Shown: one piece after another, positions 11,826 through 54,345 of the stretch | Numbering within the stretch: position 1 is the stretch's first letter | How the letters are laid out: the number at the start of each line of letters is the position of its first letter | Source: Streptomyces sannanensis | Lineage (GTDB): Bacteria > Actinomycetota > Actinomycetes > Streptomycetales > Streptomycetaceae | Assembly: GCF_039536205.1 (NCBI RefSeq) | Contig: NZ_BAAAYL010000001.1 | Span: 2,170,001-2,234,000 of the forward strand | Reading direction: 5' to 3' | Length of the DNA: 64,000 nucleotides | Translations under genes and position numbers: made by a program | The notes under the pieces: model-generated | Told to the model about the DNA's origin: nothing | Databases searched by the model: none | Seen by the model: only the letters and a program-made list of their open reading frames with translations

Positions 11826-12095
11826 ATGACCGCGCAGCCCGAGATCACCCAGCGCGACCTGCGCACCAGGTCCAAAGAGATCATGGATGCCGTCCAGAGT
11901 GGCCAGTCCTTCACCGTCACCCGGGACGGGCACCGCATCGGCGAGCTGATCCCCCTGCGTCGGCGTCGGCGCTTCGTTCCGCGCGGCGAGTTCGTCGCCA
12001 TGTCCCGCACCGCACCCGACATCCCCCTGGACGCCTTCCGCGCCGACCAGGACGCCGCCGCCGAGCAGGAGATGGACGACCCCTATGCCCGGTGA
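11826..12095 (+). CDS. Phd/YefM-type antitoxin
   Basis: An 89-residue protein starting MTAQPEITQRDLRTRSKEIM. The N-terminal Phd fold binds DNA (SGQSFTVTRDGHRIGELIPL), and an acidic disordered C-terminus (DAFRADQDAAAEQEMDDPYA) would wrap the toxin. It overlaps the PIN toxin by 11 nt, the usual coupled arrangement, and likely represses its own promoter. It is intact although it lies in a decayed zone. Confidence 0.88.
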   Translation: MTAQPEITQRDLRTRSKEIMDAVQSGQSFTVTRDGHRIGELIPLRRRRRFVPRGEFVAMSRTAPDIPLDAFRADQDAAAEQEMDDPYAR

Positions 12096-12543
12096 ACACC
12101 AGCAGGGACTCCTCGACACCAACATCATGATCCTACGCAAGTGGATCAACCCCGAGGAGCTCCCCGCCGAGATGGCCATCACCGCCGTCACCCTGGCCGA
12201 ACTCTCCGCAGGCCCCCACCAGGTTCGCAGCAACGCCGAACAGGACGACTACGACGAACACGCCGAACGCGCCCGCCGCACGGACATCCTCCAGCGCGCT
12301 GAGAACGAGTTCGACCCCATCCCCTTCGACGCGGAAGCCGCGCGCATCTACGGCCGGGTCTGCGCGGCCGTCATCAGCGCCGGCCGCACGCCCCGGCGCC
12401 GTATCGCCGATCTGATGATCGCCTCGATCGCCATCGCCGAAGGCCTCCCCCTGTTCACCACCAACCCCGACGACTTCAAGGGCCTGGACGACCTCCTCGC
12501 CGTCGTCCCCGTCACCCGACCCACAGTGCTCCACGACCGGTAG
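12085..12543 (+). CDS. VapC-like PIN-domain toxin
   Basis: A 152-residue PIN ribonuclease. The acidic residues sit in LLDTNIMILRKW, the TLAELSAG glutamate, and the RRRIADLMIASIAIAEGLPL and LFTTNPDDFKGL segments. VapC toxins cleave tRNA or rRNA, and the target here is unknown. It is paired with the overlapping Phd-type antitoxin. A tyrosine-integrase fragment and a tRNA scar directly downstream suggest it came in on, or was retained from, an integrated element. Confidence 0.88.
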   Translation: MPGEHQQGLLDTNIMILRKWINPEELPAEMAITAVTLAELSAGPHQVRSNAEQDDYDEHAERARRTDILQRAENEFDPIPFDAEAARIYGRVCAAVISAGRTPRRRIADLMIASIAIAEGLPLFTTNPDDFKGLDDLLAVVPVTRPTVLHDR

Positions 12544-15007: not shown

Positions 15008-16033
15008 TCAGGCGGCCTGTATGCCCTCGCCCGCCCTACTGATCAGGCGCTCCGCCTGCGCCAGTGCGGCCGCCGTCGCCCCCGCTGCCACGATGCGGTT
15101 CCGGTGCTCGAAGATCGCCCGCTGATGCCCCAGGGCCCGGCTCGTCATATCCCCCTCGGAGAGGGTGTTGCCACAGGCCACGAGGGCACCGGGCCCGAGG
15201 TCCCAGATGATCGTGTTGACCGCGGCTCCGGCAGCGGCGATGGCGTCCAGCTCCTGGAGCATCCAGCCGAAGTCGTGCGGGTCGCGCTGGTATTCGCGCA
15301 GAATCTGGGCGGCCGCGCGGAACATGCCGCCTGTACCGCCGGCGGGCTCGTAGAAGCGGTGCATGCGGTCGAGGTCGCCCTCGATGAGCACCCGGGCCAT
15401 CATTTCGCAGACCTCGGGCGGGGTGTGGTACTCGCCGAGTCCTGAACGGGACGAGTGGTGGCGGAGCTTGGTGATGGTCCAGGACATGAGGTCGGTCTCA
15501 GACCGCATGTAGGGGTCGCTGTCGCCGGTGTGCTGCAGGACACCGTGCTTCAGCGCGGCGTCGGTGACGGCCTTGATGGCGCGCAGGGTCGGCTCATCGT
15601 GGTTCTCCTCGGTCCAGCGGAAGATCGGGGCCGCGGTGTCGATGAGGTCGGGCCGCTGGAGCCAGTTGGCGGCGACGACTTCACCGAATCCGGCGGGGAG
15701 CGCATCGGCAGGCTGGCTGGCGATGAAGTCGGCGAGCGCCTGGGCGTGGCCGGCGCCGTCGCTCTTGATCGGCCAGAGGGCGAGGGCGGCAACGATGCCG
15801 ACGGGTATGTCCATGCGGCTACTGCCGTGGGCGCGGTACCACGCGTCGGCGATCGCCTCACCGAAGTCGACGCCGCTGGTGCGCAACGTCTGGAAGTACG
15901 GCTTGCGCCGGGGCGGCTGTGCAGGTGCGGAAGCGGGCCTCGCCTCGGCATGCGGGGCGGGGGTGGACTTGAAAGTGGCGGGCACTGGCGCCGGTTCGGG
16001 GGTGTCCTGGGCGAAGAGGTCGAGCTGCTGCAT
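15008..16033 (-). CDS. N6-adenine methylase-like protein lacking NPPY
   Basis: 341 residues. The SAM-binding region is plain (RFYEPAGGTGGMFRAAAQIL), preceded by an HsdM-like target segment (GLGEYHTPPEVCEMMARVLI). The catalytic NPPY/F motif that should follow is not seen; the frame instead goes ALVACGNTLSEGDMTSRALG and ends with a helix. It therefore resembles a C-terminally cut type I/IIG methylase subunit. It may bind SAM or DNA without methylating, or act with another protein. Confidence 0.75.
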   Translation of the reverse strand: MQQLDLFAQDTPEPAPVPATFKSTPAPHAEARPASAPAQPPRRKPYFQTLRTSGVDFGEAIADAWYRAHGSSRMDIPVGIVAALALWPIKSDGAGHAQALADFIASQPADALPAGFGEVVAANWLQRPDLIDTAAPIFRWTEENHDEPTLRAIKAVTDAALKHGVLQHTGDSDPYMRSETDLMSWTITKLRHHSSRSGLGEYHTPPEVCEMMARVLIEGDLDRMHRFYEPAGGTGGMFRAAAQILREYQRDPHDFGWMLQELDAIAAAGAAVNTIIWDLGPGALVACGNTLSEGDMTSRALGHQRAIFEHRNRIVAAGATAAALAQAERLISRAGEGIQAA

Positions 16034-21083: not shown

Positions 21084-22601
21084 TCAGGCGGTCAGGTTCA
21101 GCAGGTCTTCGCCGTAAATGGCCTCGGCGAGGGCGGAGACGAGGACTTCGGCAGCGGGCGGGGTGACGGCATTGCCGTACTGGCGGACTTGTTCGCGCCG
21201 GTTGCCGAGGACGGTGTAGTCGTCGGCGAAGGCCATGCCGCGGCCGATCTCGTCGGGGTTGAGCATCCGCAGCAAGCAGTCGTTGATGTCGATGGCGGGC
21301 GTGGGCTCGGTGGTGACCAGGGCGTGTCGGTCGACGGTGGTGACGGTGCCCATGGGGTCGGTGACGGGCTTGGCCTGGCCCTTGCCGTAGTAGGGGACGA
21401 GGAGGGCGTCGGTCTCGCGGGTGGTGCGGGTCCGCATCGGTTCGCTGACCGGCTGTGCCGTGTCGTTCCAGGTGCCACCGACCGGGACGAGCATGGGCGG
21501 GGTGACGAGGGCGTGGTGGGTGCCGGAGGCGGTGAAGGTGGCAAGCGGCTCGTCGACCCCGCGCGCCTTCTTCTCGGAGCCGCCGCCTCTCATCTCGGCG
21601 ATAAACGGCAGGAACTCGGGGGCGTAGGCGATGCCGGTCTCGTTGCGTGTGGTGATGGTGCGCATCGGTGCTTCGTCCAGCGCCCACGGCTTCTTGCCTT
21701 CGCGGCCTTCCATGGGCACGGCCATGGGGCGGCCGGCGTAGCGGTCCAGCCCTGCCTGAATGCGCTGGAGGGTCTTCTCCGCGAGCGGACGGGAGCGGTC
21801 GCCGACGCGGGTGCCGAGGACGTTCCAGTCGATGGCGGCGGCTGCCGGAAGTACGGCCGGTTCGACGGTCTTGCCGCAGCCGGTGACGGGGCACACGTAG
21901 AGGTACTGGGCGCGGTAGCGGCCCCACTCGGCGCCCTTGAATGCCTGCTGGGCTGCGATGACCCCGTGGTCCGGGCAGTGCGCCTCGGGGCTGAGCCACT
22001 TCTCCCAGTTCGGTTCGCGGCCGATGCTGGCCAGCCAGTAGACGATGTACGCGCGGTCGCGGGATTGCGGGGCCTTGGCGGTGCCGAAACGCGGGCGCAG
22101 GTGCATGGAGTTGAGGTAGACGATGCGCATTTCGTAGCCGAGGGCCCGTATCGCCTGTGCCCATGCGTCGAACAGGATCCAGTTGCGGACGTCGACGACG
22201 TTCTCGGTGACGCCGCCGAGGACCGGCTTGCCGCGCAGGATCATCGCTTCGAGGTAGCGGGGGACGTCCCACATGGTGGCGCGGGAGCGTACGGCGGCGG
22301 CGTCGGGCAGGATCTCGCCGAACAGGTCGGGCTGGCGGTCGGCGTCGGTGCGTATGCCGCGGGCTATGGAGTGGTTGGTGCACTCGGGCGACGCCCACAG
22401 CAGGTCGGTGCGCGGGTAGCGGCGGAAGTCGATCTGGCTGATGTCGGCGCAGTCGTGCTGCACGGCCGGGAAGTTCTCCGCGTGGGAGGAGATCGCGAGG
22501 TCCCAGTGGTTCGCAGCGATCTTCACTTCGACACCGGGCACGCAGTGCATGCCCTGAGAGGAGCCGCCGGCGCCGCAGAAGAAGTCGGTGACGGTGAGCA
22601 T
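21084..22601 (-). CDS. DNA (cytosine-5) methyltransferase
   Basis: 505 residues from ATG 22601, just after a start-associated sequence. Motif I is DFFCGAGGSSQGM. The catalytic loop is LLWASPECTNHSIARG, so the usual PCQ is written PEC with the Cys kept. Motif VI is GGVTENVVDVRNW and motif VIII QSRDRAYIV; the target-recognition region lies between about 260 and 400. It methylates C5 of cytosine. With no cognate nuclease nearby, protection from host restriction or epigenetic control is the likely role. Confidence 0.88.
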   Translation of the reverse strand: MLTVTDFFCGAGGSSQGMHCVPGVEVKIAANHWDLAISSHAENFPAVQHDCADISQIDFRRYPRTDLLWASPECTNHSIARGIRTDADRQPDLFGEILPDAAAVRSRATMWDVPRYLEAMILRGKPVLGGVTENVVDVRNWILFDAWAQAIRALGYEMRIVYLNSMHLRPRFGTAKAPQSRDRAYIVYWLASIGREPNWEKWLSPEAHCPDHGVIAAQQAFKGAEWGRYRAQYLYVCPVTGCGKTVEPAVLPAAAAIDWNVLGTRVGDRSRPLAEKTLQRIQAGLDRYAGRPMAVPMEGREGKKPWALDEAPMRTITTRNETGIAYAPEFLPFIAEMRGGGSEKKARGVDEPLATFTASGTHHALVTPPMLVPVGGTWNDTAQPVSEPMRTRTTRETDALLVPYYGKGQAKPVTDPMGTVTTVDRHALVTTEPTPAIDINDCLLRMLNPDEIGRGMAFADDYTVLGNRREQVRQYGNAVTPPAAEVLVSALAEAIYGEDLLNLTA

Positions 22602-22664
22602 GGTGGGTCTCCAAGAGGTCAAGTCCGGCCCGCCGCCTGGGCGGCGGGCCGGATCGGGGTGTTG

Positions 22665-45002: not shown

Positions 45003-45428
45003 TCACCCAGGCGGGGTGATCTCGTCCAGGCGGGTGACTCGCACGATCTCCACCGTGGATGCCTCCGACGGGTCAAGGACCTGCCAGGTGCGCCCCGTTG
45101 TTGCCGCATGCTGGCCTGCTGCGGCAATCACTTCCACTCGGTCGTAGCGGGCGGGCACGGGCGCCGAGATCGGTGTGAGCAGTCGGTACCAGGAGACCGT
45201 GTCGTCGAGCCATTCGCGCCCGAGGACGTGCTGGGCGGTGACCTGGCCGTGGCCGGAGAGGACCGCGCCGGTCCCCTCGTACACAGTCGTGGCCGGCACC
45301 GGGCCGAGCAGGCCGGTATCCGCATCGAGGACCGGGGTGCCGGTCGGCCTGGTGATGCGGACTGTGTCCACCAGGACTTCGGACTCGAGGCGCTGCCGCT
45401 CGGCCTCTTTATCGATCGGCGTCGTCAC
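45003..45428 (-). CDS. Head-tail adaptor, copy 2 (DUF6093-like)
   Basis: 141 residues from GTG 45428, overlapping the previous stop. LVDTVRITRPTGTPVLDADT is followed by TTVYEGTGAVLSGHGQVTAQ and a domain end ASTVEIVRVTRLDEITPPG. It is plainly homologous to the gene just upstream, so the adaptor was duplicated in tandem. Such proteins form the ring between portal and tail. Confidence 0.75.
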   Translation of the reverse strand: MTTPIDKEAERQRLESEVLVDTVRITRPTGTPVLDADTGLLGPVPATTVYEGTGAVLSGHGQVTAQHVLGREWLDDTVSWYRLLTPISAPVPARYDRVEVIAAAGQHAATTGRTWQVLDPSEASTVEIVRVTRLDEITPPG

Positions 45429-45859
45429 GAGGACCCCGTGGTCTGCGTGTTTTGGTCGAGGAAGGTCGTACGGACGACGGCGAGAGTCGACGTCTGTCCG
45501 ATGTCCAGTACGCGCCAGGTGCGGCCGATGGCGGCGGGGTCGGCCGCCTGGGTGACGCTGACCGTGTCCCCCCGGGAGGCCACAGGCGCATCCAGCGGGG
45601 TGAACAGCTTGTACTTCGACGTGGAGTCGTCGAAGTACGCCTGGCCCTCCAGGTGCAGGACGATCCCCGGCCCGCCGTCGGGGAAAACTCCGCCGTTGCC
45701 TTCGTAGATGGCGATGGGCGGGCCGGGCTCGTACTGGCCAGTGTCCGGGTTGAATACCGGCTCCCCCGGCCGGGTGATCTTGACGGTGTCGGTGAGGATC
45801 TTGCGCTCGATAATGTCGCTGACAGCCCCCAGAGTCAGCCCCTCAGTGGGTGTACTCAT
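45425..45859 (-). CDS. Head-tail adaptor, copy 1 (DUF6093-like)
   Basis: 144 residues from ATG 45859. LTDTVKITRPGEPVFNPDTG, PIAIYEGNGGVFPDGGPGIV and WRVLDIGQTSTLAVVRTTFL parallel the following paralogue segment by segment. It is the first connector gene after cargo island 2; the gap from the island's MurF stop is only 77 nt. Confidence 0.75.
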   Translation of the reverse strand: MSTPTEGLTLGAVSDIIERKILTDTVKITRPGEPVFNPDTGQYEPGPPIAIYEGNGGVFPDGGPGIVLHLEGQAYFDDSTSKYKLFTPLDAPVASRGDTVSVTQAADPAAIGRTWRVLDIGQTSTLAVVRTTFLDQNTQTTGSS

Positions 45860-45936
45860 GTGTTCGAGCGTAGAGGCTGCCACCGACACCCAATCTGTTC
45901 TCCTCTCGCGGCCCAGGGCCACCCGATGCGGCGTGC

Positions 45937-47337
45937 CTACGCGGCCGTCATATCGGCCTGAAGGACGTCGGCGAAGTGCTCCAAGCCAACCGAGCGCGAG
46001 GCCTTCACGAGAACCACGTCACCGCTCTTGAGTAAGCCGTGCAGAACCGGCAACAGGCCGTCCGGATCGGCAGCCGATTCGATCTGCGGGGGCGAGGAGC
46101 TGAGACGCGCAGCATCGCTGAGTGCCATGGCCTCGCTGGTGGTGCCCACCGTCACCAGGACATCGATGCCCAACTCGCCGACGAGACGTCCAATCTCCGC
46201 GTGGGCTGCACGCGAGGCATCACCGAGTTCCTTCATCTCGCCCAGCACGGCGACCTTCCGTCGCCCCTGGGCAAGGGACTTAAGCGAGTGGAGTCCGGCA
46301 CGCATGGATTCGACATTGGCGTTGAAGGCGTCATTGATGATCGTCACGCCATCGGCGCGTTCGAGAACCTGGAGCCTGCCGGCCGACACGGGGTCGGCGG
46401 CGGACAGCGCCTCGGCAATCTGGGCCGTGGCCATGCCAAGCGAGTGGGCAGCAGCTGCCACCGCGAGCGCATTGTGAACCTGGTGCGCACCCAGCAGGCG
46501 CAGGGCGACGGAGGCCGAGCCCTGCGGTGTGTGCAGAACAAACGTGGCGCGGCCAGCAGTGATACGGATATCGGTGGCCCGGATGTCGGCGCTGCCGCCG
46601 GTTCCATACGTCACAACGGCGGCCACCGTCCGGTGGGCCATCGCGGCGACCAGGTCATCATCGGCATTCAGGACCGCGACGCCGCCCTCGGCTACCGGAG
46701 GGAGCGCCTGAACCAGCTCGCTCTTGGCGTCGGCAATGGCTCGCCGGCTGCCGAACTCCCCGACGTGCGCGGAGCCGATGTTGAGGACGATGCCCAGGCT
46801 CGGCGGGGTGAGCGAGGTAAGGTACGCGATGTCGCCTTGATGTCGCGCGCCCATCTCCAGAATGAGGTAACGGGTGGACTCGCTGGCGCGCAGCACGGTG
46901 AGCGGCAGACCGATCTCCGTGTTGAACGAGCCCGGCGTAGCGACGGTTTCCCCATGGCGGCTGAGGACCTGCGCGAGGAGGTCCTTGGTGGTTGTCTTCC
47001 CCGCGGAGCCGGTCAGGGCGACGACCTGTGCGTTGGCGGTGCGGGTGAGAACGTGCTGCGCGAGCCGGCCGAGGGCCGCAGTGACATCGGGGACGACGAC
47101 GGCGGGCACACCGACGGGGCGGGAAGCCAGGACGCATACGGCGCCTGCGGTGATGGCCTGGGGGACAAAGTCGTGTCCGTCGACGCGGGCGCCGGACACC
47201 GCGACGAACATGCCGCCAGGGTCTACATTCCGGGAGTCGCTGGCACTTTGACCGGTCACCCGCACAAGGGGGTCGGGGGCATCGTGGAGGGTGCCGCCGG
47301 TGGCTTGGGCGATCTCGGTGAGCGTCAACGTAATCAC
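45937..47337 (-). CDS. MurF-like D-Ala-D-Ala-adding ligase
   Basis: 466 residues from GTG 47337, overlapping the C39 stop by 4 nt. Full-length Mur ligase: P-loop VVALTGSAGKTTTKDLL (about 106-120), central domain ILEMGARHQGDIAYLT, the carbamylated-lysine segment IADAKSELVQAL, and C-terminal INDAFNANVESMRAG with VAVLGEMKELGDASRAAH. MurF normally joins a dipeptide to UDP-MurNAc-tripeptide. Nothing is missing, so it is probably active, either on the wall precursor or on a related substrate. It is last in the island operon. Confidence 0.85.
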   Translation of the reverse strand: MITLTLTEIAQATGGTLHDAPDPLVRVTGQSASDSRNVDPGGMFVAVSGARVDGHDFVPQAITAGAVCVLASRPVGVPAVVVPDVTAALGRLAQHVLTRTANAQVVALTGSAGKTTTKDLLAQVLSRHGETVATPGSFNTEIGLPLTVLRASESTRYLILEMGARHQGDIAYLTSLTPPSLGIVLNIGSAHVGEFGSRRAIADAKSELVQALPPVAEGGVAVLNADDDLVAAMAHRTVAAVVTYGTGGSADIRATDIRITAGRATFVLHTPQGSASVALRLLGAHQVHNALAVAAAAHSLGMATAQIAEALSAADPVSAGRLQVLERADGVTIINDAFNANVESMRAGLHSLKSLAQGRRKVAVLGEMKELGDASRAAHAEIGRLVGELGIDVLVTVGTTSEAMALSDAARLSSSPPQIESAADPDGLLPVLHGLLKSGDVVLVKASRSVGLEHFADVLQADMTAA

Positions 47338-47885
47338 GCGGGGATCCTTCCGGCGATGAGGGGGGCGAAGGTGATCGCGCGCCCGGAATAGGAGGCGGCC
47401 ACCCTGCTGAGCGGCACCCGACCATGCGTCTGGCCCCAGGCGGACGGGTCGCGAATGAGGATGACGGGGTCCGGTCCGGCCTCGTAACCGCGGGCGATGA
47501 TGAGGTGGCCGCCACGGCGCCCGTCGTCGGGAAGCTGCTCAGTGACCGAGATGATGAGGGGGGCGTCAGCAAGTCGGCTCACGAGGCTGTCGACCGCAAC
47601 GGGCTCGGCGCGGCCTGGCACTCCGAAGTCAGTCGCCAGGTCGGCGATGCCGGCGTGAAGCCAGCCCCGAGGGGTCAGGGCCTCGCGCTTGACGCCCAGC
47701 TTCAGCAGCTCGGTCACTGAGGGGGCCTCGCGGCCGTAGGCGAGAAGGATCATCCGTAGTGCTGCCATGCCGCACGCTCTATCCGACCACTCGATGCGGT
47801 CCCCGAGCGCCCACCCTCCGTGGAGGTCCCATTCATCGGGCTCGATGCGCTGACGACACATGGGCACATCGTGGACGCGGGACAT
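47334..47885 (-). CDS. C39-family cysteine peptidase
   Basis: 183 residues, stand-alone, without transporter or signal peptide. The catalytic triad can be placed at Cys38 (RACGMAALRMILLAYG), His127 (GRRGGHLIIARGYE) and Asp146 (VILIRDPSAWGQT). C39-type peptidases cut after double-Gly leaders or act on peptide bonds in the cytosol. It sits between Ddl (17-nt gap) and MurF (overlap), so it probably trims or ligates a peptide in that pathway. Confidence 0.8.
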   Translation of the reverse strand: MSRVHDVPMCRQRIEPDEWDLHGGWALGDRIEWSDRACGMAALRMILLAYGREAPSVTELLKLGVKREALTPRGWLHAGIADLATDFGVPGRAEPVAVDSLVSRLADAPLIISVTEQLPDDGRRGGHLIIARGYEAGPDPVILIRDPSAWGQTHGRVPLSRVAASYSGRAITFAPLIAGRIPA

Positions 47886-47902
47886 GGCAGCACTCCGGTC
47901 GT

Positions 47903-48982
47903 TCAGGCAGTGGCCTCCCGCTCGGAGAAGAGGCCAGTGAAGACGGGCCTGGGCAGAGGCACATCGTACGGGGCCCGGGCCATGGCTTCGTGGAGCATGG
48001 CCACAACGACATCAGTGTGTGTGAGCCCATGCAGGGCCGCACCGACGACGAAGTTGCTGTCTCGGGACATGCCCGGCGTCGTGTTCACCTCCAGCGCGTA
48101 TGCCTCCCTGTCGGTGACGATGAAATCCACCCGTGCCGCACCGTGACAGTCCAGGCCGTCCCAGAGCGTCTTGGCATACCCGGTCACGGCGGATAGCAGG
48201 TCCCCCGTCAGACCCGCCTTTGTAACCGACACGGTACCCACGGAATCGGCGTCCAGCTTCGCTTCCGCGTCGTAGAACTCGCCGGAGTGCACGTTCGTGG
48301 CCAGGGGCGGGAAGACCAGGACGCCGTTGGGCAGTTCCAGCATGCCTACCGTCACCGGCGTTCCCGGCAGGTACTCCTCCACTAAGACGGGGGAGGCGTC
48401 CACACGGGCGGCGTCCCCAAGGGCTGCCGCCAGCTCTTCCGGGTTGTGCACCAGACTCATCCCCACGCTGGAACCGCCGAGGGTCGGTTTGACCATCACC
48501 GGCCACCCCAGCCACTCCACCGGGTTGGCGGACCACACATGCCACAGCGGCGTGGGGATGCCCAGGCTCTCCATGAACCGCTTACACCGGATCTTGTCCG
48601 CGGCCACTGCAGAAGCAGCCACACCGCTTCCGCAGTACGGCATGCGCAGGTAGTCCAGCAGCCCTTGCAGCCGGCCGTCCTCCCCAAACGGGCCGTGCAG
48701 GTTGGACAGCGCCACCTGGTACGAAGCCAGCTCCTGAACGAACTGCGGCTCGCACGGATCGAGGATCTGGAACCGCGCGCCGATCTCGGTGAGTGCCTCG
48801 GACAGTGCCGTGACCGACATCTGCTCTGGCGGGCACTTAGCGGCGTAGAGCTGGTCCTCTGCGGACACCGGTCCGTAGACCAGGGCCACGTGCAGTCCCT
48901 TCTGGCTCCGCTGCCAGGTGCGAAGTGTCTCGACGGACTCCTGCACCGCCGCGATGTTATGGGAGTCGAGGAAGACGGTCAT
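47903..48982 (-). CDS. D-alanine-D-alanine ligase-like ATP-grasp enzyme
   Basis: 359 residues from ATG 48982, overlapping the DapF stop (ATGA). The Ddl motifs are complete: LSNLHGPFGEDGRLQG, AASAVAADKIRCKRFMESLG, VKPTLGGSSVGMSL, VLVEEYLPGTPVTVGML and ALEVNTTPGMSRDSNF. It joins two amino acids, usually two D-Ala. The specificity residues differ enough from cellular Ddl that D-Ala-D-X or another dipeptide is possible. It feeds MurF encoded two genes later. Confidence 0.87.
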   Translation of the reverse strand: MTVFLDSHNIAAVQESVETLRTWQRSQKGLHVALVYGPVSAEDQLYAAKCPPEQMSVTALSEALTEIGARFQILDPCEPQFVQELASYQVALSNLHGPFGEDGRLQGLLDYLRMPYCGSGVAASAVAADKIRCKRFMESLGIPTPLWHVWSANPVEWLGWPVMVKPTLGGSSVGMSLVHNPEELAAALGDAARVDASPVLVEEYLPGTPVTVGMLELPNGVLVFPPLATNVHSGEFYDAEAKLDADSVGTVSVTKAGLTGDLLSAVTGYAKTLWDGLDCHGAARVDFIVTDREAYALEVNTTPGMSRDSNFVVGAALHGLTHTDVVVAMLHEAMARAPYDVPLPRPVFTGLFSEREATA

Positions 48983-49776
48983 GCGATCACTCCTTCGAAC
49001 GAGTGGGTGACGGGCCCACCAACCCAGAAGGCCCGTGGGCGATCGGTGTGGGGACGGACAGTGAGGGGTGTGCCGGCCTTGTTGTGCACGGTGACCGGGG
49101 CAGCGCCGACCAGGCCCCGATGCGCGGCGATGACGACGGCAGCAACGGCTCCGCTGCCGCATGACAGGGTTTCGGCCTCGACGCCCCGCTCGTAGGTGCG
49201 GATCTTCAGCTCCTGCCGACCGACCGACTGGACGAAGTTGACGTTCGTGCCAAGCGGTGCGAGCCGGTCGTGGTGGCGAACGATGCGGCCAAAGGCTTCC
49301 GCGTCGAGTCCGTCCACGTCATCGACGACAGCGACGACATGCTCAGTGCCGGTGTGCGCGGAGTCGAACCAGAACGGCCGGTGGTTCCACACAGCCTGAA
49401 CGCGCCGCATCTCGACCGCGCCGACCTCGGCCGTCACCTCTACGCTCTGCCCGTGCACGAGCCCCTGGTGCTCCACGCCGGCCATCACCAGGGTCATGTC
49501 CCTGAAGTGGTGGTCGCTGGCCGCGCACCATGCGGCGCATCGCAAGGCATTGCCGCACATGGTGGCGATCGATCCGTCGGCGTTGTAGCAGGTGACCCCG
49601 AGTACGGGCGGGGCGGAGCCGATCAGGGCACTGACGACCAGGCCGTCCGCGCCGATGCCGGTCCGCCGGGCACACAGGTCGCGGGCATCATGCGACCAGT
49701 CCTTTCCCAGGACCCCGGCGGGGCCAGTGAGCAGGATGAAGTCGTTCCCGGCTCCGTGCAGCTTTCGGAAGTCCAT
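48979..49776 (-). CDS. Diaminopimelate epimerase-like protein
   Basis: 265 residues from ATG 49776 with GGAGGAG upstream. The two catalytic cysteines are present: Cys74 in YNADGSIATMCGNALRC (usual CGNG reads CGNA) and Cys206 in YERGVEAETLSCGSGAVA. The substrate loop MDFRKLHGAGNDF is normal. It would convert LL- to meso-diaminopimelate or epimerise a related amino acid. Streptomyces walls use LL-DAP, so an extra epimerase could alter the wall precursor. First gene of the coupled DapF-Ddl-C39-MurF set. Confidence 0.85.
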   Translation of the reverse strand: MDFRKLHGAGNDFILLTGPAGVLGKDWSHDARDLCARRTGIGADGLVVSALIGSAPPVLGVTCYNADGSIATMCGNALRCAAWCAASDHHFRDMTLVMAGVEHQGLVHGQSVEVTAEVGAVEMRRVQAVWNHRPFWFDSAHTGTEHVVAVVDDVDGLDAEAFGRIVRHHDRLAPLGTNVNFVQSVGRQELKIRTYERGVEAETLSCGSGAVAAVVIAAHRGLVGAAPVTVHNKAGTPLTVRPHTDRPRAFWVGGPVTHSFEGVIA

Positions 49777-50029
49777 CCGATCTCCTCCTCGTCCTTCTCA
49801 AGCGGGTGCGAGAGGGCTGAGGGGCGTGCTCGCCCAGCCTCGGGACCATCGCGGGTCACGCGGCTATCCGAACAAGAGCCCCTTACGGGTGATGTGCGCG
49901 ATACGGCGGGGTGTCCTGGCGCAGGGCGCCCCCGTAACGAGCCGTGCTGCCTACCGGCTGGCGCCCGCGGGATGAGGCAGGACCAGAGTGGGAGTGAGCT
50001 CGTAGGTGGCGTTCACCGCCCGATGTCAT

Positions 50030-50494
50030 TCACGCGGTCGCTCCTCGCACTGCGAGAAGAGCCCAGGTGCACTTGGCCCCGCCGGCGAGAATGGTCCACC
50101 CCCAGTCAGAGGTCAGGGCGTGAACCAAGGCCAGGCCGCGGCCGCCTGTCGCCTCGCCCGGATCGGCCACAGGGCGGGGCGGCTTCTCGCTGAAATCGCG
50201 TACCTCGATGAGAAGCAGGCCTCCGCCGTATGAGGCGACGAGCTCGATGTCGCGCCCACCGGCGTGCACCACGGCATTGGCAATGAGTTCACCTGCTACG
50301 AGCATCGCGTCGTCAATGGCTCGGGGGACGCGCCACGCGTAAAGGATCGCCCGGAGCTCCCTGCGGACCCGTGGCACCTCAGATAACTCGCCGACAAGCC
50401 CCAGCGACATCTGTGACCTGGCCGGCATCTTGGGCCGTTCGCGCGGCTCCACGACGGCCACGAGTTCCGGGAAAGCTGTGGATTCGGTCTTCAC
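50030..50494 (-). CDS. RsbW/AbaA-like ATP-binding protein
   Basis: 154 residues from GTG 50494, overlapping the upstream stop by 4 nt. HATPase_c fold: N-box AGELIANAVVHAGGRD, G1-like IEVRDFSEKPP and G2 GEATGGRGLALVHALT. It is a stand-alone anti-sigma or signalling ATPase, abundant in Streptomyces next to XRE regulators. It probably tunes expression of the island. Confidence 0.82.
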   Translation of the reverse strand: MKTESTAFPELVAVVEPRERPKMPARSQMSLGLVGELSEVPRVRRELRAILYAWRVPRAIDDAMLVAGELIANAVVHAGGRDIELVASYGGGLLLIEVRDFSEKPPRPVADPGEATGGRGLALVHALTSDWGWTILAGGAKCTWALLAVRGATA

Positions 50495-50886
50495 GCGCGG
50501 ACACCACCCTCAGAGCGAGGCCCGTGCTCGGAAAGCAGGTAGCACGCCAGCGCCTTGTTGCAGAGCAGCCAAGAACGCAGGGCAGTGCGATCTGCCCGGT
50601 AGAAGGCAATCTCTGTTTCGGTGGTCGCGATCACGCCTTGCACCTTGCCGTCGACGATGTACTGCTCAATCGCCAGCCAGCCGGTGCGGGTGCTGCGCGG
50701 GGTGCCCACCGGCACCATGTCGTACAGCTCGGCAGCAACATCGCACCCCAGCGATTCAGCAAACTTCCGCAGCGAGTTCAGGGTTGCCGCCGCGACGCCC
50801 GAATCGATGGCGATCGTGTACAGCACAACCCGCTGACCGGCGATCGCTGAGTCAACTGCCTGCCGCTCAGATCTCCTAGCGTCCAT
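50491..50886 (-). CDS. Resolvase-N-terminal-like protein
   Basis: 131 residues from ATG 50886 (CAGGAG upstream). The Rossmann-like segment VVLYTIAIDSGVAAATLNSL, CDVAAELYDMVPVGTPRSTR and VDGKVQGVIATTETEIAFYR resemble the catalytic half of serine recombinases, without the DNA-binding half. The nucleophile serine and arginine pattern is not convincing, so it is probably a regulatory relative. A phage start-associated motif (CCTCTTGGAGAAG) lies 17-31 nt before the start. Confidence 0.6.
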   Translation of the reverse strand: MDARRSERQAVDSAIAGQRVVLYTIAIDSGVAAATLNSLRKFAESLGCDVAAELYDMVPVGTPRSTRTGWLAIEQYIVDGKVQGVIATTETEIAFYRADRTALRSWLLCNKALACYLLSEHGPRSEGGVRA

Positions 50887-51105
50887 CGGGACTCCTGAGG
50901 TCAGCTTCTCCAAGAGGTCACCAGCACACGGGCATATGCCAATTAGCCTGGTCTGCCCGGGGAATGGCGGACTAGCCCTAGAATCTGCACCTCAACGGCT
51001 CTGCCCGTGTGCCGGATTACCCATGACGCTATGCCGCATAAGGTGCGGAGGCGACGGACTGCGGGTACGAGTAAGGACAGGCCACCAACGCCACGGGGAG
51101 GCGAA

Positions 51106-52242
51106 ATGGCCGCTCACAGCGACAGGCCCGCCCTCGCAACGCTGACTGGCAGCAGCCCTGCTGTGCGGCCGCGCGAAGGCACGGTCACCGGCCACCTCTT
51201 CAAGGTGATCCGCGAGCGCATCCCCCGCACTCAACAAGAGCTTGCCGAGGCACTCAGCGTGGACAAGGCGACCATCCAGGGCTGGGAGTCAGGGCGACGT
51301 CCTCTCACCGCCACCCAGGCCGGGAAGCTGCGCACGGTATCCAGAACGTTGCTGCGCCTGGGCGCGTCATCACACATGCTTGCCCTGCTCAACGAGGCAA
51401 TGGACGCCGATACTGTCATCGCCCATGCCCTAGCTGGCCCTCCAGCGCAGGACATCGCCTCGCACCCCCTGGCTAACTGGGTGTTCACCCGCAGCACCAC
51501 GCACATGCTCGCCTGGGCGCTGACCGGCACCCCACCCGAAGCTCTACCCTCCGCCGAACTCCCCCGTCGCCGCGGCCCGTCCCCTGCCTCACCGCTTCTC
51601 CCTCACACCGAGCTGCGCGCCTTCTACGATCACATGCGCCGCGCCGCCGAACTCGGCGACCATGCAGGAGAGTCCGGAGCTTTGCTGCGCCGCCAAGCTC
51701 TGTACGTGTGCTCCTACGACGATGCAGCAGACACTCGGGACTGGCTCGCCGACATGAGACGACGCAGCCGCCCTCCACGCGCCGGCCAGTGGACCCCGCA
51801 TTGGGCCGACACCCGATCTGTCGCCGCATCCCTCACCCGGCACGGCGACCCCGATCCCCTGCACGCGTTCATCAGGCAGGGCATGGGCGACGAAACCGGC
51901 GAGATCGCCAACCTCAACTACTGGGCGAACTGGCTCGGCGTCGACCTCACCACCCACGCCAATGACACCTTCATGGTCGAGCAGTCCCACACCGCATGGG
52001 ACGGCCTCGCGCTACTCCGGCGCCTCACCGACCGCCTCGCCCCGAACCTCGCCTGCATCGACCTGAACGCACACACCGTGTGGTCGCTCCTCGCAGCGCG
52101 CCGTGGCCTGCTGGCCGCCGACCCGAATCTCAATCGCGTACTCGACGAGCGCGTCACTACCCTCCTGGACAGCAGCACGATCTCCGCACAGACCAGGCGC
52201 GAGCTGGAGGAAGTGCACTACGGTCTGACCTTGCATACCTGA
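51106..52242 (+). CDS. XRE-family regulator of the island
   Basis: 378 residues from ATG 51106 with GGGGAGGCGAA upstream. The helix-turn-helix is at about 35-85 (TQQELAEALSVDKATIQGWE, SGRRPLTATQAGKL). A long C-terminal helical domain (about 140-370) resembles the tetratricopeptide-like sensor half of Streptomyces XRE regulators. It diverges from the resolvase-like/DapF side and precedes the HD gene by 21 bp, so it likely controls the whole island. Confidence 0.82.
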   Translation: MAAHSDRPALATLTGSSPAVRPREGTVTGHLFKVIRERIPRTQQELAEALSVDKATIQGWESGRRPLTATQAGKLRTVSRTLLRLGASSHMLALLNEAMDADTVIAHALAGPPAQDIASHPLANWVFTRSTTHMLAWALTGTPPEALPSAELPRRRGPSPASPLLPHTELRAFYDHMRRAAELGDHAGESGALLRRQALYVCSYDDAADTRDWLADMRRRSRPPRAGQWTPHWADTRSVAASLTRHGDPDPLHAFIRQGMGDETGEIANLNYWANWLGVDLTTHANDTFMVEQSHTAWDGLALLRRLTDRLAPNLACIDLNAHTVWSLLAARRGLLAADPNLNRVLDERVTTLLDSSTISAQTRRELEEVHYGLTLHT

Positions 52243-52263
52243 TCACGGCCAGGAGGGGACGGC

Positions 52264-52848
52264 ATGACGGACGCCGACAACACTGCCATGGACGAAGGAA
52301 CCGTTGGGTACCTGCTGGAGATGGGTGCCCTCAAGCGCGGCAAGCGCAGCGGCTGGTGGATCGCCGGCGTCAAGGACCCAGAGACGATCGCCGAGCACTC
52401 TTGGCGCACCGCAGTCATCGGCTCCGTCCTTGCAATGATGGAAGGCGCCGACCCAGCGAGAGTGGCACTGCTGTGCACCTTTCACGACACGCAGGAAACC
52501 CGCGTCGGCGACATCCCATGGATCGGTCGCCGCTACCTGACCGCCGCCAACAACGAGGCCGTCACCGCCGACCAGGTCGCCGACGCTCACCCCAAGGTTG
52601 CCGCTGGCATCCAGAAGATCATCGAGGAATACGAGAACGGCGAGTCCCTCGAAGTCCTGGTCGCCCACGACGCCGACAGGCTGGAGTGCACGATCCAAGG
52701 GCTGGAGTACCTGCAGCAGGGATACCCGGCCGCGCAGGAGTGGGTCGACAGCACCCGCGCCAAGCTGAAGACTCCGTCTGCCCAGGCTCTTGCCAAGGCC
52801 GCGCTGACCATGTCGATCGCTGAGTGGCAGCGCACCTACTTGCAATGA
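52264..52848 (+). CDS. HD-domain phosphohydrolase (YfbR-like)
   Basis: 194 residues. The metal-binding residues are in DPETIAEHSWRTAVIG (His), LCTFHDTQETRVGDI (His-Asp) and VAHDADRLECTIQ (Asp). The pattern matches YfbR/HDDC2 5'-nucleotidases, which dephosphorylate deoxynucleoside monophosphates. It is co-directional with the XRE gene. In a phage it could tune nucleotide pools, or act with the peptide genes. Confidence 0.8.
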   Translation: MTDADNTAMDEGTVGYLLEMGALKRGKRSGWWIAGVKDPETIAEHSWRTAVIGSVLAMMEGADPARVALLCTFHDTQETRVGDIPWIGRRYLTAANNEAVTADQVADAHPKVAAGIQKIIEEYENGESLEVLVAHDADRLECTIQGLEYLQQGYPAAQEWVDSTRAKLKTPSAQALAKAALTMSIAEWQRTYLQ

Positions 52849-52929
52849 GCAGTCGTTCTGGCTGGCGGCGAGTGGCCGAGTAACAGGCAGAGCCAGACCG
52901 CGGCCTCGCCGCCAACCAGCACACGCCAG

Positions 52930-53121
52930 CTAGGCGAGCAAGAACATGAGCACTGGCAGGCAGACCGCCATGGAACCTGCGAAGCCAACACCCGCAGCGA
53001 CGAGGCAGTCAGCGAAGGCCGCCCCTTCGCTTAGCTTGAGCATGGCTGCTACGAGGCCCACACAGCTTGAGATAAGAGCGGCAACCACTGTGTAGACGAT
53101 CTTGCGTTCCCTTACGCTCAC
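52930..53121 (-). CDS. Small membrane protein, 63 aa
   Basis: The GTG at 53121 has GGAAAGG upstream. Two hydrophobic segments (VYTVVAALISSCVGLVAAML, GVGFAGSMAVCLPVLMFLLA) separated by a short loop. It lies at the head-side edge of cargo island 2, converging on the HD gene. The function is unknown; a membrane or transport role is possible. Confidence 0.6.
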   Translation of the reverse strand: MSVRERKIVYTVVAALISSCVGLVAAMLKLSEGAAFADCLVAAGVGFAGSMAVCLPVLMFLLA

Positions 53122-53532
53122 CGCGACCTTTCCTCCCCGGGGAAGGCGGTCTGGCTTGTCGCATGACGACATCAGGAACCAGACCGCCATGATTCAGCGA
53201 TCAACCGGACCGCGTTGTCAGCAGTCCTCACCTGATGTGCCTGCAAGGTGAGCTGTCGGGTTCGACCCTCTTGCACTGGTCGGCCGCGCCTCCTAGCACA
53301 CGGCTTCACCCCAAGGCTCGACTCCTACGAGTCGGCCAACATAATTGGTTCCCCAGCTCCTGTCGCCCCTGCTGCCCCTCCTCAAGCAGACTTATCTCGA
53401 CGAACAGCCCAAGATCGCGACTGTGGCGCGGCAGGACAGGACCCGGCAATACCGCACCGTCTGAAATGGTCCTCCAGGCATCCGTCAGGTGCGCCCCCAT
53501 TCGGACAAATTGTGACCCACGCCACCACGCCT
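53122..53532. other. Gene-free spacer at head side of cargo island 2
   Basis: Neither strand shows a frame with a plausible ribosome site. No strong hairpin or repeat stands out. It probably marks the insertion boundary between the minor head gene and the island. Confidence 0.5.
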
Positions 53533-54345
53533 CTAGGGCCGAACAACGTCCGGTCGTGGGCCAAAAGCCCGCCGGCACCGCGGGTGGGAGATCGGCCACT
53601 CCGCAGCTTCGTCGACGCTGCGCAATGTCCGTGCTGCCTTGTCGGGATCCTGGTGACTGGTCCATCCACAGTCGGCACCGTCGAAGACCTCGACCACTCC
53701 GACGCCGGCCTCCCTGGCGCGGTTGAGGGTGCCCGCGTTGTAGGCAACGGCGCTCTTCGCCAGGGTGGCAGTCTCCGCCCACGCGCGTACAGGTACGCGG
53801 GCACCGTGGCGGTACACGACGTGGGTCAGGCTCTGGCCAGCCAGTTTGTCGGCGAGAGCTTTGGCGGCCTGCCTGGCGGTGGTGTTTCCAGCGGCGAGCT
53901 GCGGCACCTCCGCACGTGCCGCAGCTCTGACCGTCCGGTACCAGCGTTCCGCCATCCGCTCGGCCTCCTGGGAGCGCCGGAGGAAATCCTCGTACGAGTC
54001 GGAGGCGAGGGACTGGAGCGCGTCGACGTGGGCCTGCGTCCAGGTGAACTGCTGTCCGACCGCCGCGGCGGCGCGCTGCGCCCCCTGCTGGTAGAGGTGC
54101 GGCAGCTGGCGTTGTACGAACGCCCGTGCCTCCGCATCCACACGGCCGCGAAAATCGGCGATCGCGGCTTTGAACTCCTCCAACGTGGCCAGCACGTACG
54201 GCAGCCGCCAGCGGGCGACGATGCTCGCGATGACCGTGGTCTGCTTGTCGGCGAGCCGCTGCCAGGCATCCTCCAGTACGCGGGCGACGCGGCGCGCCAC
54301 CTCGTCCGGGTCGCCGGGCGTCAGCGGCGGCCACTCGTACGGCAT
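53533..54345 (-). CDS. Minor head protein (MuF-like)
   Basis: 270 residues. A helical front (EEFKAAIADFRGRVDAEARA, LASDSYEDFLRRSQEAERMA) leads to the MuF-type C-terminal motif: FDGADCGWTSHQDPDKA and AEWPISHPRCRRAFGP, with Cys and His ligands. Such proteins sit inside the head near the portal and may be injected. It is the last head gene before cargo island 2. Confidence 0.78.
   Translation of the reverse strand: MPYEWPPLTPGDPDEVARRVARVLEDAWQRLADKQTTVIASIVARWRLPYVLATLEEFKAAIADFRGRVDAEARAFVQRQLPHLYQQGAQRAAAAVGQQFTWTQAHVDALQSLASDSYEDFLRRSQEAERMAERWYRTVRAAARAEVPQLAAGNTTARQAAKALADKLAGQSLTHVVYRHGARVPVRAWAETATLAKSAVAYNAGTLNRAREAGVGVVEVFDGADCGWTSHQDPDKAARTLRSVDEAAEWPISHPRCRRAFGPRPDVVRP

Follow-up and report, generated by a model that had tools for sequence, protein, structure and literature searches.

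The stretch of DNA analyzed here (the window) comprises 64,000 nucleotides of Streptomyces sannanensis, positions 2170001–2234000 of contig NZ_BAAAYL010000001.1 within a 7.83-Mb genome, and carries a prophage whose late genes hold an island built around four wall-precursor-type genes. A first-pass annotation of this DNA had described them as coupled, complete-looking relatives of DapF, Ddl, a C39 peptidase and MurF; reading frames and family models agree, and the set is real, in frame, complete and coupled, with Ddl scoring below its TIGR01205 cut-off. All four genes lie on the minus strand and encode a DapF-like epimerase (48979–49776), a Ddl-like ATP-grasp ligase (47903–48982, with an ATG start at 48982), a C39-type papain-fold cysteine protease (47334–47885) and a full-length MurF identified by family-model and domain matches (45937–47337); overlaps of 4 nt occur at the DapF/Ddl and C39/MurF junctions. 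Outside the window, the host genome contains one DapF, one Ddl and one MurF above family cut-offs.

That the set is phage-borne is corroborated by PHROGs matches around the island to portal, major head, minor head, neck1 and tape measure proteins. Inspection by eye of the DNA to the right of the window reveals terminase-like, ParB-like and tyrosine-integrase-like genes followed by chromosomal genes, placing the length of the prophage at ~67 kb. The island is bounded on the left by the minor head gene (53533–54345, minus strand) and on the right by the first neck/tail gene (45425–45859, minus strand), labelled a head-tail adaptor. This gene starts at 45859 rather than at 45922, as first annotated, and its name rests on position, as both 'adaptor' genes match phrog_13779, a family without stated function.

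Further genes lie between the cassette and the minor head gene. An RsbW-like HATPase_c_2 regulator (50030–50494) and a resolvase-like small protein (50491–50913) share the minus strand of the cassette, while an XRE-type regulator (51106–52242) and an HD-domain hydrolase (52264–52848) form a divergent plus-strand pair; the XRE open reading frame opens at 51007, leaving its start uncertain, with 51106 the probable position. Pfam supports the earlier naming of the ATPase, XRE and HD proteins, but gives no match for the resolvase-like protein, whose resemblance was seen by eye only. A small minus-strand gene (52930–53190), whose protein shows a membrane-like segment on visual inspection and has no Pfam match, may or may not belong to the same unit.

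A fixed cargo hotspot in a family of Streptomyces prophages

When the minor head protein was used to query 295 Streptomyces genomes, 41 matched, the window's own among them; in 13 of the others, identity reached 70% or more across almost the full protein length. The first adaptor could be located downstream of the minor head gene in 10 of these 13 close relatives, at distances of 8.6, 12.5, 12.6, 14.4, 15.2, 17.9, 21.6, 23.1, 24.3 and 24.9 kb, against 7.6 kb in the window. In all 11 prophages with both edges, 7.6–24.9 kb of cargo thus separates the minor head gene from the neck/tail unit; the island represents one of the many different cargos found at this fixed spot across the prophage family. 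This count leaves aside the other three close relatives, L079/L090 (right edge not found within ~31 kb), L078 (contig end) and G279 (only a partial second copy, L086, fetched), and also L087/L096 (right edge likewise not found within ~31 kb; minor head partial in L087). Past the cargo, the order of neck and tail genes is kept across relatives wherever they were read far enough. Such cargo is absent from the more distant phage ZL12 (minor head 37% identical) and from the IMG/VR loci L111–L113 (33–35%).

The cargos themselves vary widely. NCBIfam models match above cut-off to an FxLD lanthipeptide precursor in L090, the prophage without a located right edge noted above, to FxLD methyltransferases in L090 and L085, and to thiopep_ocin domains in L090, L076 and L085. 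The prophage L084/L094 carries a MurA at the same hotspot (L094, 15244–16593; 492.4 bits against a cut-off of 392.7) next to a gene that looks radical-SAM-like by eye and has no NCBIfam match at 1e-20. Other cargo genes are radical-SAM-like, glutamine-synthetase-like, amino-acid-permease-like or resemble nucleotide-sugar dehydrogenases, several of these identified visually or with scores under equivalog cut-offs. Overlap in cargo proteins between prophages is only partial; the window shares only its ATPase, with three of the ten others, and no relatives of its DapF, Ddl, C39 or MurF occur in the other cargos at 1e-4.

Among 13 close relatives in IMG/VR, nine (L099–L106, L108) stop 0–4 kb past the minor head gene, suggesting that virus predictors may trim these prophages at the cargo; the biosynthetic load of such phages may consequently be largely hidden. 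Small biosynthetic clusters have been reported in actinobacterial prophages (13 of 2112), several of them class I lanthipeptide clusters in Streptomyces (PMC10023795, available text). The island resembles these in being biosynthetic cargo of a Streptomyces prophage, but neither a fixed late-gene hotspot nor a wall-enzyme cassette is described in that part of the paper. Among the papers listed in literature searches, mostly open access, there was no account of the four-gene cassette or of a late-gene cargo hotspot in Streptomyces prophages.

A promoter-like motif marks the right edge of the cargo

Comparison of the prophages by eye shows homology ending just past the minor head stop codon on the left and restarting, on the right, at the motif TGTC[AG]G-N10-TA[CG]G[CG]T-N7-ATG, whose ATG is the adaptor start. 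The strict pattern occurs once in the window, as TGTCGG-N10-TACGCT-N7-ATG (45857–45888, minus strand), and at the adaptor of six of the ten other measured prophages (L074, L075, L077, L080, L083, L084); the motif deviates in L076, L081, L082 and L085. Across the 399 kb of prophage-side loci a single additional site (L096) turned up, whereas 320 kb of control DNA contained no site. From its TGTC onward, the window site matches the RecA-NDp/PafBC promoter consensus, which we take to be tTGTCRGtg-N8-TAnnnT. This promoter class and its regulator are described for Streptomyces and other actinobacteria in the accessible portions of PMC5087735 and PMC8223512.

The motif probably represents a RecA-NDp/PafBC-like promoter of the adaptor/tail unit, predicted to be leaderless and presumably induced by DNA damage. 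Because of this match, the cargo probably falls between transcription units. The island had been placed inside the late operon: its position between minor head and adaptor genes stands, but it appears to separate two late units rather than to interrupt one. Whatever the insert, the tail unit would retain its own DNA-damage-type promoter.

The cassette recurs on chromosomes and plasmids

Searches with the C39 protein gave 316 relatives at 1e-3, the best 120 of which were listed. At 1e-50, relatives occur in 21 of 392 Streptomyces genomes, the window's own included (75–79% identity in the others), and at 1e-20 in three of 394 genomes drawn from the class, again including its own, with one at 43%. 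The core of the cassette is an actinobacterial module that is also chromosomal and plasmid-borne, and a phage-specific cluster, considered as a candidate, was rejected on these grounds. Wide chromosomal distribution with an unrelated product had been named in advance as evidence against a wall-precursor role; the cassette proved fairly common in Streptomyces chromosomes and present on plasmids, but no characterized product was found for it. None of the 31 cassette loci carries the portal, head, adaptor or tape-measure genes of this prophage family within the fetched stretch, and C39 relatives were absent from the phage and viral_contigs collections searched.

A single architecture accounts for 23 of the 31 loci: an XRE gene with DUF6879 and small genes, then DapF-Ddl-C39, and finally the C-terminal domain of MurF without the rest of the protein. 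DapF and Ddl are each in one piece in 21 of these 23. Full-length MurF occurs in the window, in L008, in L044 (where a DapF relative was not found) and on plasmid L193; the MurF match breaks off in L018, and the contig ends in L020. In a tree of 39 C39 sequences, 15 loci of the common architecture form one clade (99/95, from a rough bootstrap) with the window outside it. C39 and the MurF C-domain are fused into one protein in L021, P0015, P0068 and P0085. P0062, suggested by its length to be another such fusion, was rejected, the extra length being an N-terminal extension.

A relaxase relative lies within the fetched stretch of eight of the 31 loci (by Pfam in one), and three Streptomyces plasmids hold the cassette. 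Of the two plasmids examined, L194 has the whole set, with MurF as the C-domain only; on L193, C39 and a full MurF accompany a Ddl cut to its last 46 residues. L173, L174 and L193 are broken copies. CutA and XRE neighbors of the L194 cassette have relatives, at 60–64% and 47% respectively, in prophage hotspot cargos. Relatives of the window XRE and HD genes were not found in the 31 cassette loci. At L045, 62% HD and 47% XRE relatives adjoin a Ddl-C39-MurF_C module, and it is on this basis that XRE and HD probably belong to the functional unit.

More distant Ddl-C39 modules stand near MFS, amino-acid ligase, FemAB_like or methyltransferase-like genes. At L047 and L048, C39 relatives lie beside FemAB_like, L-amino-acid ligase and MFS genes, together with Ddl (L047) or an M15 VanX-type peptidase (L048), and each locus is a possible D-peptide natural-product cluster. 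In the Planomonospora locus L127, two C39 genes belonging to different subfamilies stand in tandem, with no Ddl or DapF relative found nearby, and the C39 of L126, from the same genus, resembles a hybrid of the two. A permease-like gene upstream of DapF in L019 resembles, by eye, that of prophage hotspot cargos, hinting at module exchange between the chromosomal cassette and the hotspot.

Altered putative substrate sites in the cassette DapF and Ddl

The window DapF passes its family model (TIGR00652, 181 bits against a cut-off of 114.65), and both catalytic cysteines are present in all 28 cassette rows, the window included (L121, which is partial, was excluded). In the same 28 rows, the GNPH motif, whose Asn we take to be a substrate-site residue, is altered to GTEH or GTDH (GTEH in the window); the host DapF reads GNPH. 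The first-pass suggestion that the lysogen might replace LL- with meso-DAP is unlikely to hold by DapF alone, because no MurE was seen in the island; the motif, too, is changed.

Ddl departs further from its family, scoring 194.8 bits against the TIGR01205 cut-off of 245.65. The second D-Ala site, for which we assume the DdlB residues Leu282 and Tyr216, is non-canonical throughout: at the former position, Asn occurs in 31 of 31 cassette Ddls, against Met in the host and Leu in Escherichia coli, and at the latter, Leu, Ile or His in all 31 (counts exclude L008, L015 [two-piece match], L021, L022, L173, L174 and L193 [partial or absent]). With Asn replacing Met or Leu in every case, the cassette enzyme is unlikely to be an ordinary D-Ala-D-Ala ligase. 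Among the Van-type ligase models listed, it reaches 82–110 bits against cut-offs of 495–775.

The window MurF scores 434.4 bits with TIGR01143 (cut-off 288.6) and so matches the family model as well as the host MurF does at 429.9; the two proteins are 56% identical, and the three domains, P-loop and NAN motif of a canonical ligase are all present. C39 narrowly exceeds its cut-offs (PF13529, 25.1 against 24; PF03412, 22.2 against 22). It is a 183-residue single-domain protein, not the peptidase domain of an ABC exporter, and retains the C39 fold and an intact papain-like Cys-His-Asp triad (C38/H127/D146). A PDB sequence search returned one row at chance level; phytochelatin synthase Alr0975 and the pseudomurein peptidase PeiR, both of papain-like fold, are among the close known systems.

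Defense genes near the cassette

Type I CBASS genes lie near the cassette in L011 and L051 (the same system, 97%), type II CBASS near that of L124, CRISPR I-E near that of L019, and strong GajA and GajB (Gabija) matches occur among the pooled neighbors of a second set of loci. A first comparison gave 66 PADLOC families among 127 neighbors from 18 loci, against three among 127 ORFs from 14 control regions (127 of 169 neighbors were used, long ORFs and some others being omitted, and 127 of 153 control ORFs, two regions from the window's own genome being dropped). The second gave 53 families among 88 neighbors from 11 loci, against 70 among 144 ORFs from 16 control regions; counts were pooled over loci, with 25 families listed per scan. 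Since the second controls also contained defense-type matches (restriction-, Mza- and candidate-type), we treat this context as an observation and not as enrichment. The window HD, Ddl and MurF proteins gave no PADLOC match at 1e-5.

Proposed role of the cassette and its alternatives

The product of the cassette is probably an unusual D-amino-acid dipeptide, which might serve to alter a building block of the host wall or to ward off other phages. We favor, at a probability of roughly 0.38, a mobile D-Ala-D-X module with VanC-like logic, in which an altered wall precursor would protect the lysogen. From the observed gene identities, coupling, hotspot, different replicons, residue changes and fold, we infer substrates, product and effect as follows. 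The DapF-like enzyme would invert an amino acid X, probably not DAP; the Asn-type Ddl would couple D-Ala, or a like residue, to D-X; and MurF would add the dipeptide onto UDP-MurNAc-tripeptide, copies with MurF_C only depending on host MurF or on a C39/MurF_C pair. C39 may edit peptides, for example by stripping off the usual D-Ala-D-Ala terminus or by acting as a transferase for the new dipeptide, and the XRE/HD and resolvase-like/ATPase pairs may regulate the cassette. A lysogen so altered would be shielded from competitors that target lipid II or the wall, among them phage lysins. The earlier interpretation as an altered wall precursor is thereby partly supported: the Ddl pocket changes would fit the new terminal dipeptide it proposed, and a MurA occupies the same spot in another prophage of the family. 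The spread of the cassette over chromosomes and plasmids, and the 27 of 31 loci whose MurF has no ligase domains, weaken it.

This logic has precedents. VanC operons include a serine racemase, and VanC/VanE/VanG and VanHAX operons, like the cassette, combine a supplier of the second residue, a variant Ddl, a peptidase and a MurF installing the dipeptide. The supplier, however, is VanH or a serine racemase in place of a DapF-like enzyme, the peptidase is the zinc enzyme VanX or VanXY (M15) rather than a cysteine protease, and the cassette Ddl falls far below the cut-offs of the Van models listed; neither VanRS nor the M15 dipeptidase is among the island genes scanned. The D-cycloserine natural-product pathway includes DcsC (7vdy), a DapF-fold O-ureido-serine racemase, which parallels the cassette in that a DapF relative was recruited to D-amino-acid supply; none of the cycloserine genes was seen at the island. 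A vanHAX cluster with MurF is described in the available text of PMC8698665.

Several observations weigh against the D-Ala-D-X module. VanX, VanRS and MurE were not seen among the island genes scanned, DapF lies above the curated DapF cut-off, and MurF lacks its ligase domains in 27 of the 31 loci. The C39 role is a guess, the fold alone showing no function; the defense enrichment failed in a second comparison; and the MFS transporter and amino-acid ligase of L047/L048-type loci fit an exported small peptide equally well. Such loci (C39, amino-acid ligase, FemAB_like, MFS), together with the lanthipeptide-type cargos, make it nearly as likely, though still doubtful, that the cassette yields a free small peptide containing D-residues, cytoplasmic or secreted, serving as chemical anti-phage defense or as a bacteriocin. 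Ddl would then be the peptide ligase, C39 would process or transfer, and MurF or its C-domain would have been recruited as a ligase or binding domain. The CutA and XRE relatives shared between L194 and the hotspot, and the CBASS, CRISPR I-E and Gabija genes near some chromosomal copies, would suit this product; the full-length canonical MurF of the window and the failed second defense comparison would not, and the island yielded neither an exporter nor a precursor peptide. Defense islands of actinomycetes are reported, in the accessible parts of PMC12360287 and PMC12715929, to encode LanB-type lanthipeptides with anti-phage activity, the latter paper citing Shomar et al. for the 'lanthiphages' of Actinomycetota, and the FxLD genes at the same prophage spot may be a putative parallel. 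Lanthiphages share with the cassette small size, actinobacterial hosts and, for some, proximity to defense genes, but depend on a LanB-type protein and a precursor, neither of which is among the island genes scanned, so that the chemistry must differ.

Two other accounts are improbable. The hotspot may merely tolerate inserts, leaving the cassette a passenger that currently benefits neither phage nor lysogen; variable cargo and some broken chromosomal and plasmid copies accord with this, but the window copy is intact and coupled, key residues are kept across widely diverged copies, and all 11 measured hotspots contain cargo. Slightly less probable again is a dose effect, in which ordinary reactions supply more D-Ala-D-Ala precursor for wall repair or tolerance in lysogeny: DapF and MurF exceed curated cut-offs, in its favor, but the sub-threshold Ddl with its uniformly altered second-residue pocket, the changed DapF motif and the absence of the MurF ligase domains from 27 of 31 loci all speak against it. 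About equally unlikely is a more specific scheme, in which C39 and the Mur-ligase C-domain would together act as a dipeptidyl transferase that needs no ATP: D-Ala-D-X would be bound by the Mur domain and exchanged onto stem peptides by C39. This prophage and other mobile elements would use it as wall-based chemical immunity, one of several exchangeable biosynthetic kinds in a dedicated late-gene cargo bay beside a DNA-damage-type promoter.

The cassette would offer new wall-precursor or D-peptide chemistry and a ligase of predicted new specificity. With lanthipeptide-type genes, radical-SAM genes, a MurA and a D-dipeptide cassette at one fixed spot, the idea of a phage 'payment' to its host becomes testable in Streptomyces.

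Other features of the window

A VapBC-like pair was seen by eye near the left prophage end (11826–12543), and the phage carries two DNA methylase genes, at 15008–16033 (Pfam N6_Mtase) and 21084–22622 (Pfam C5 DNA_methylase).

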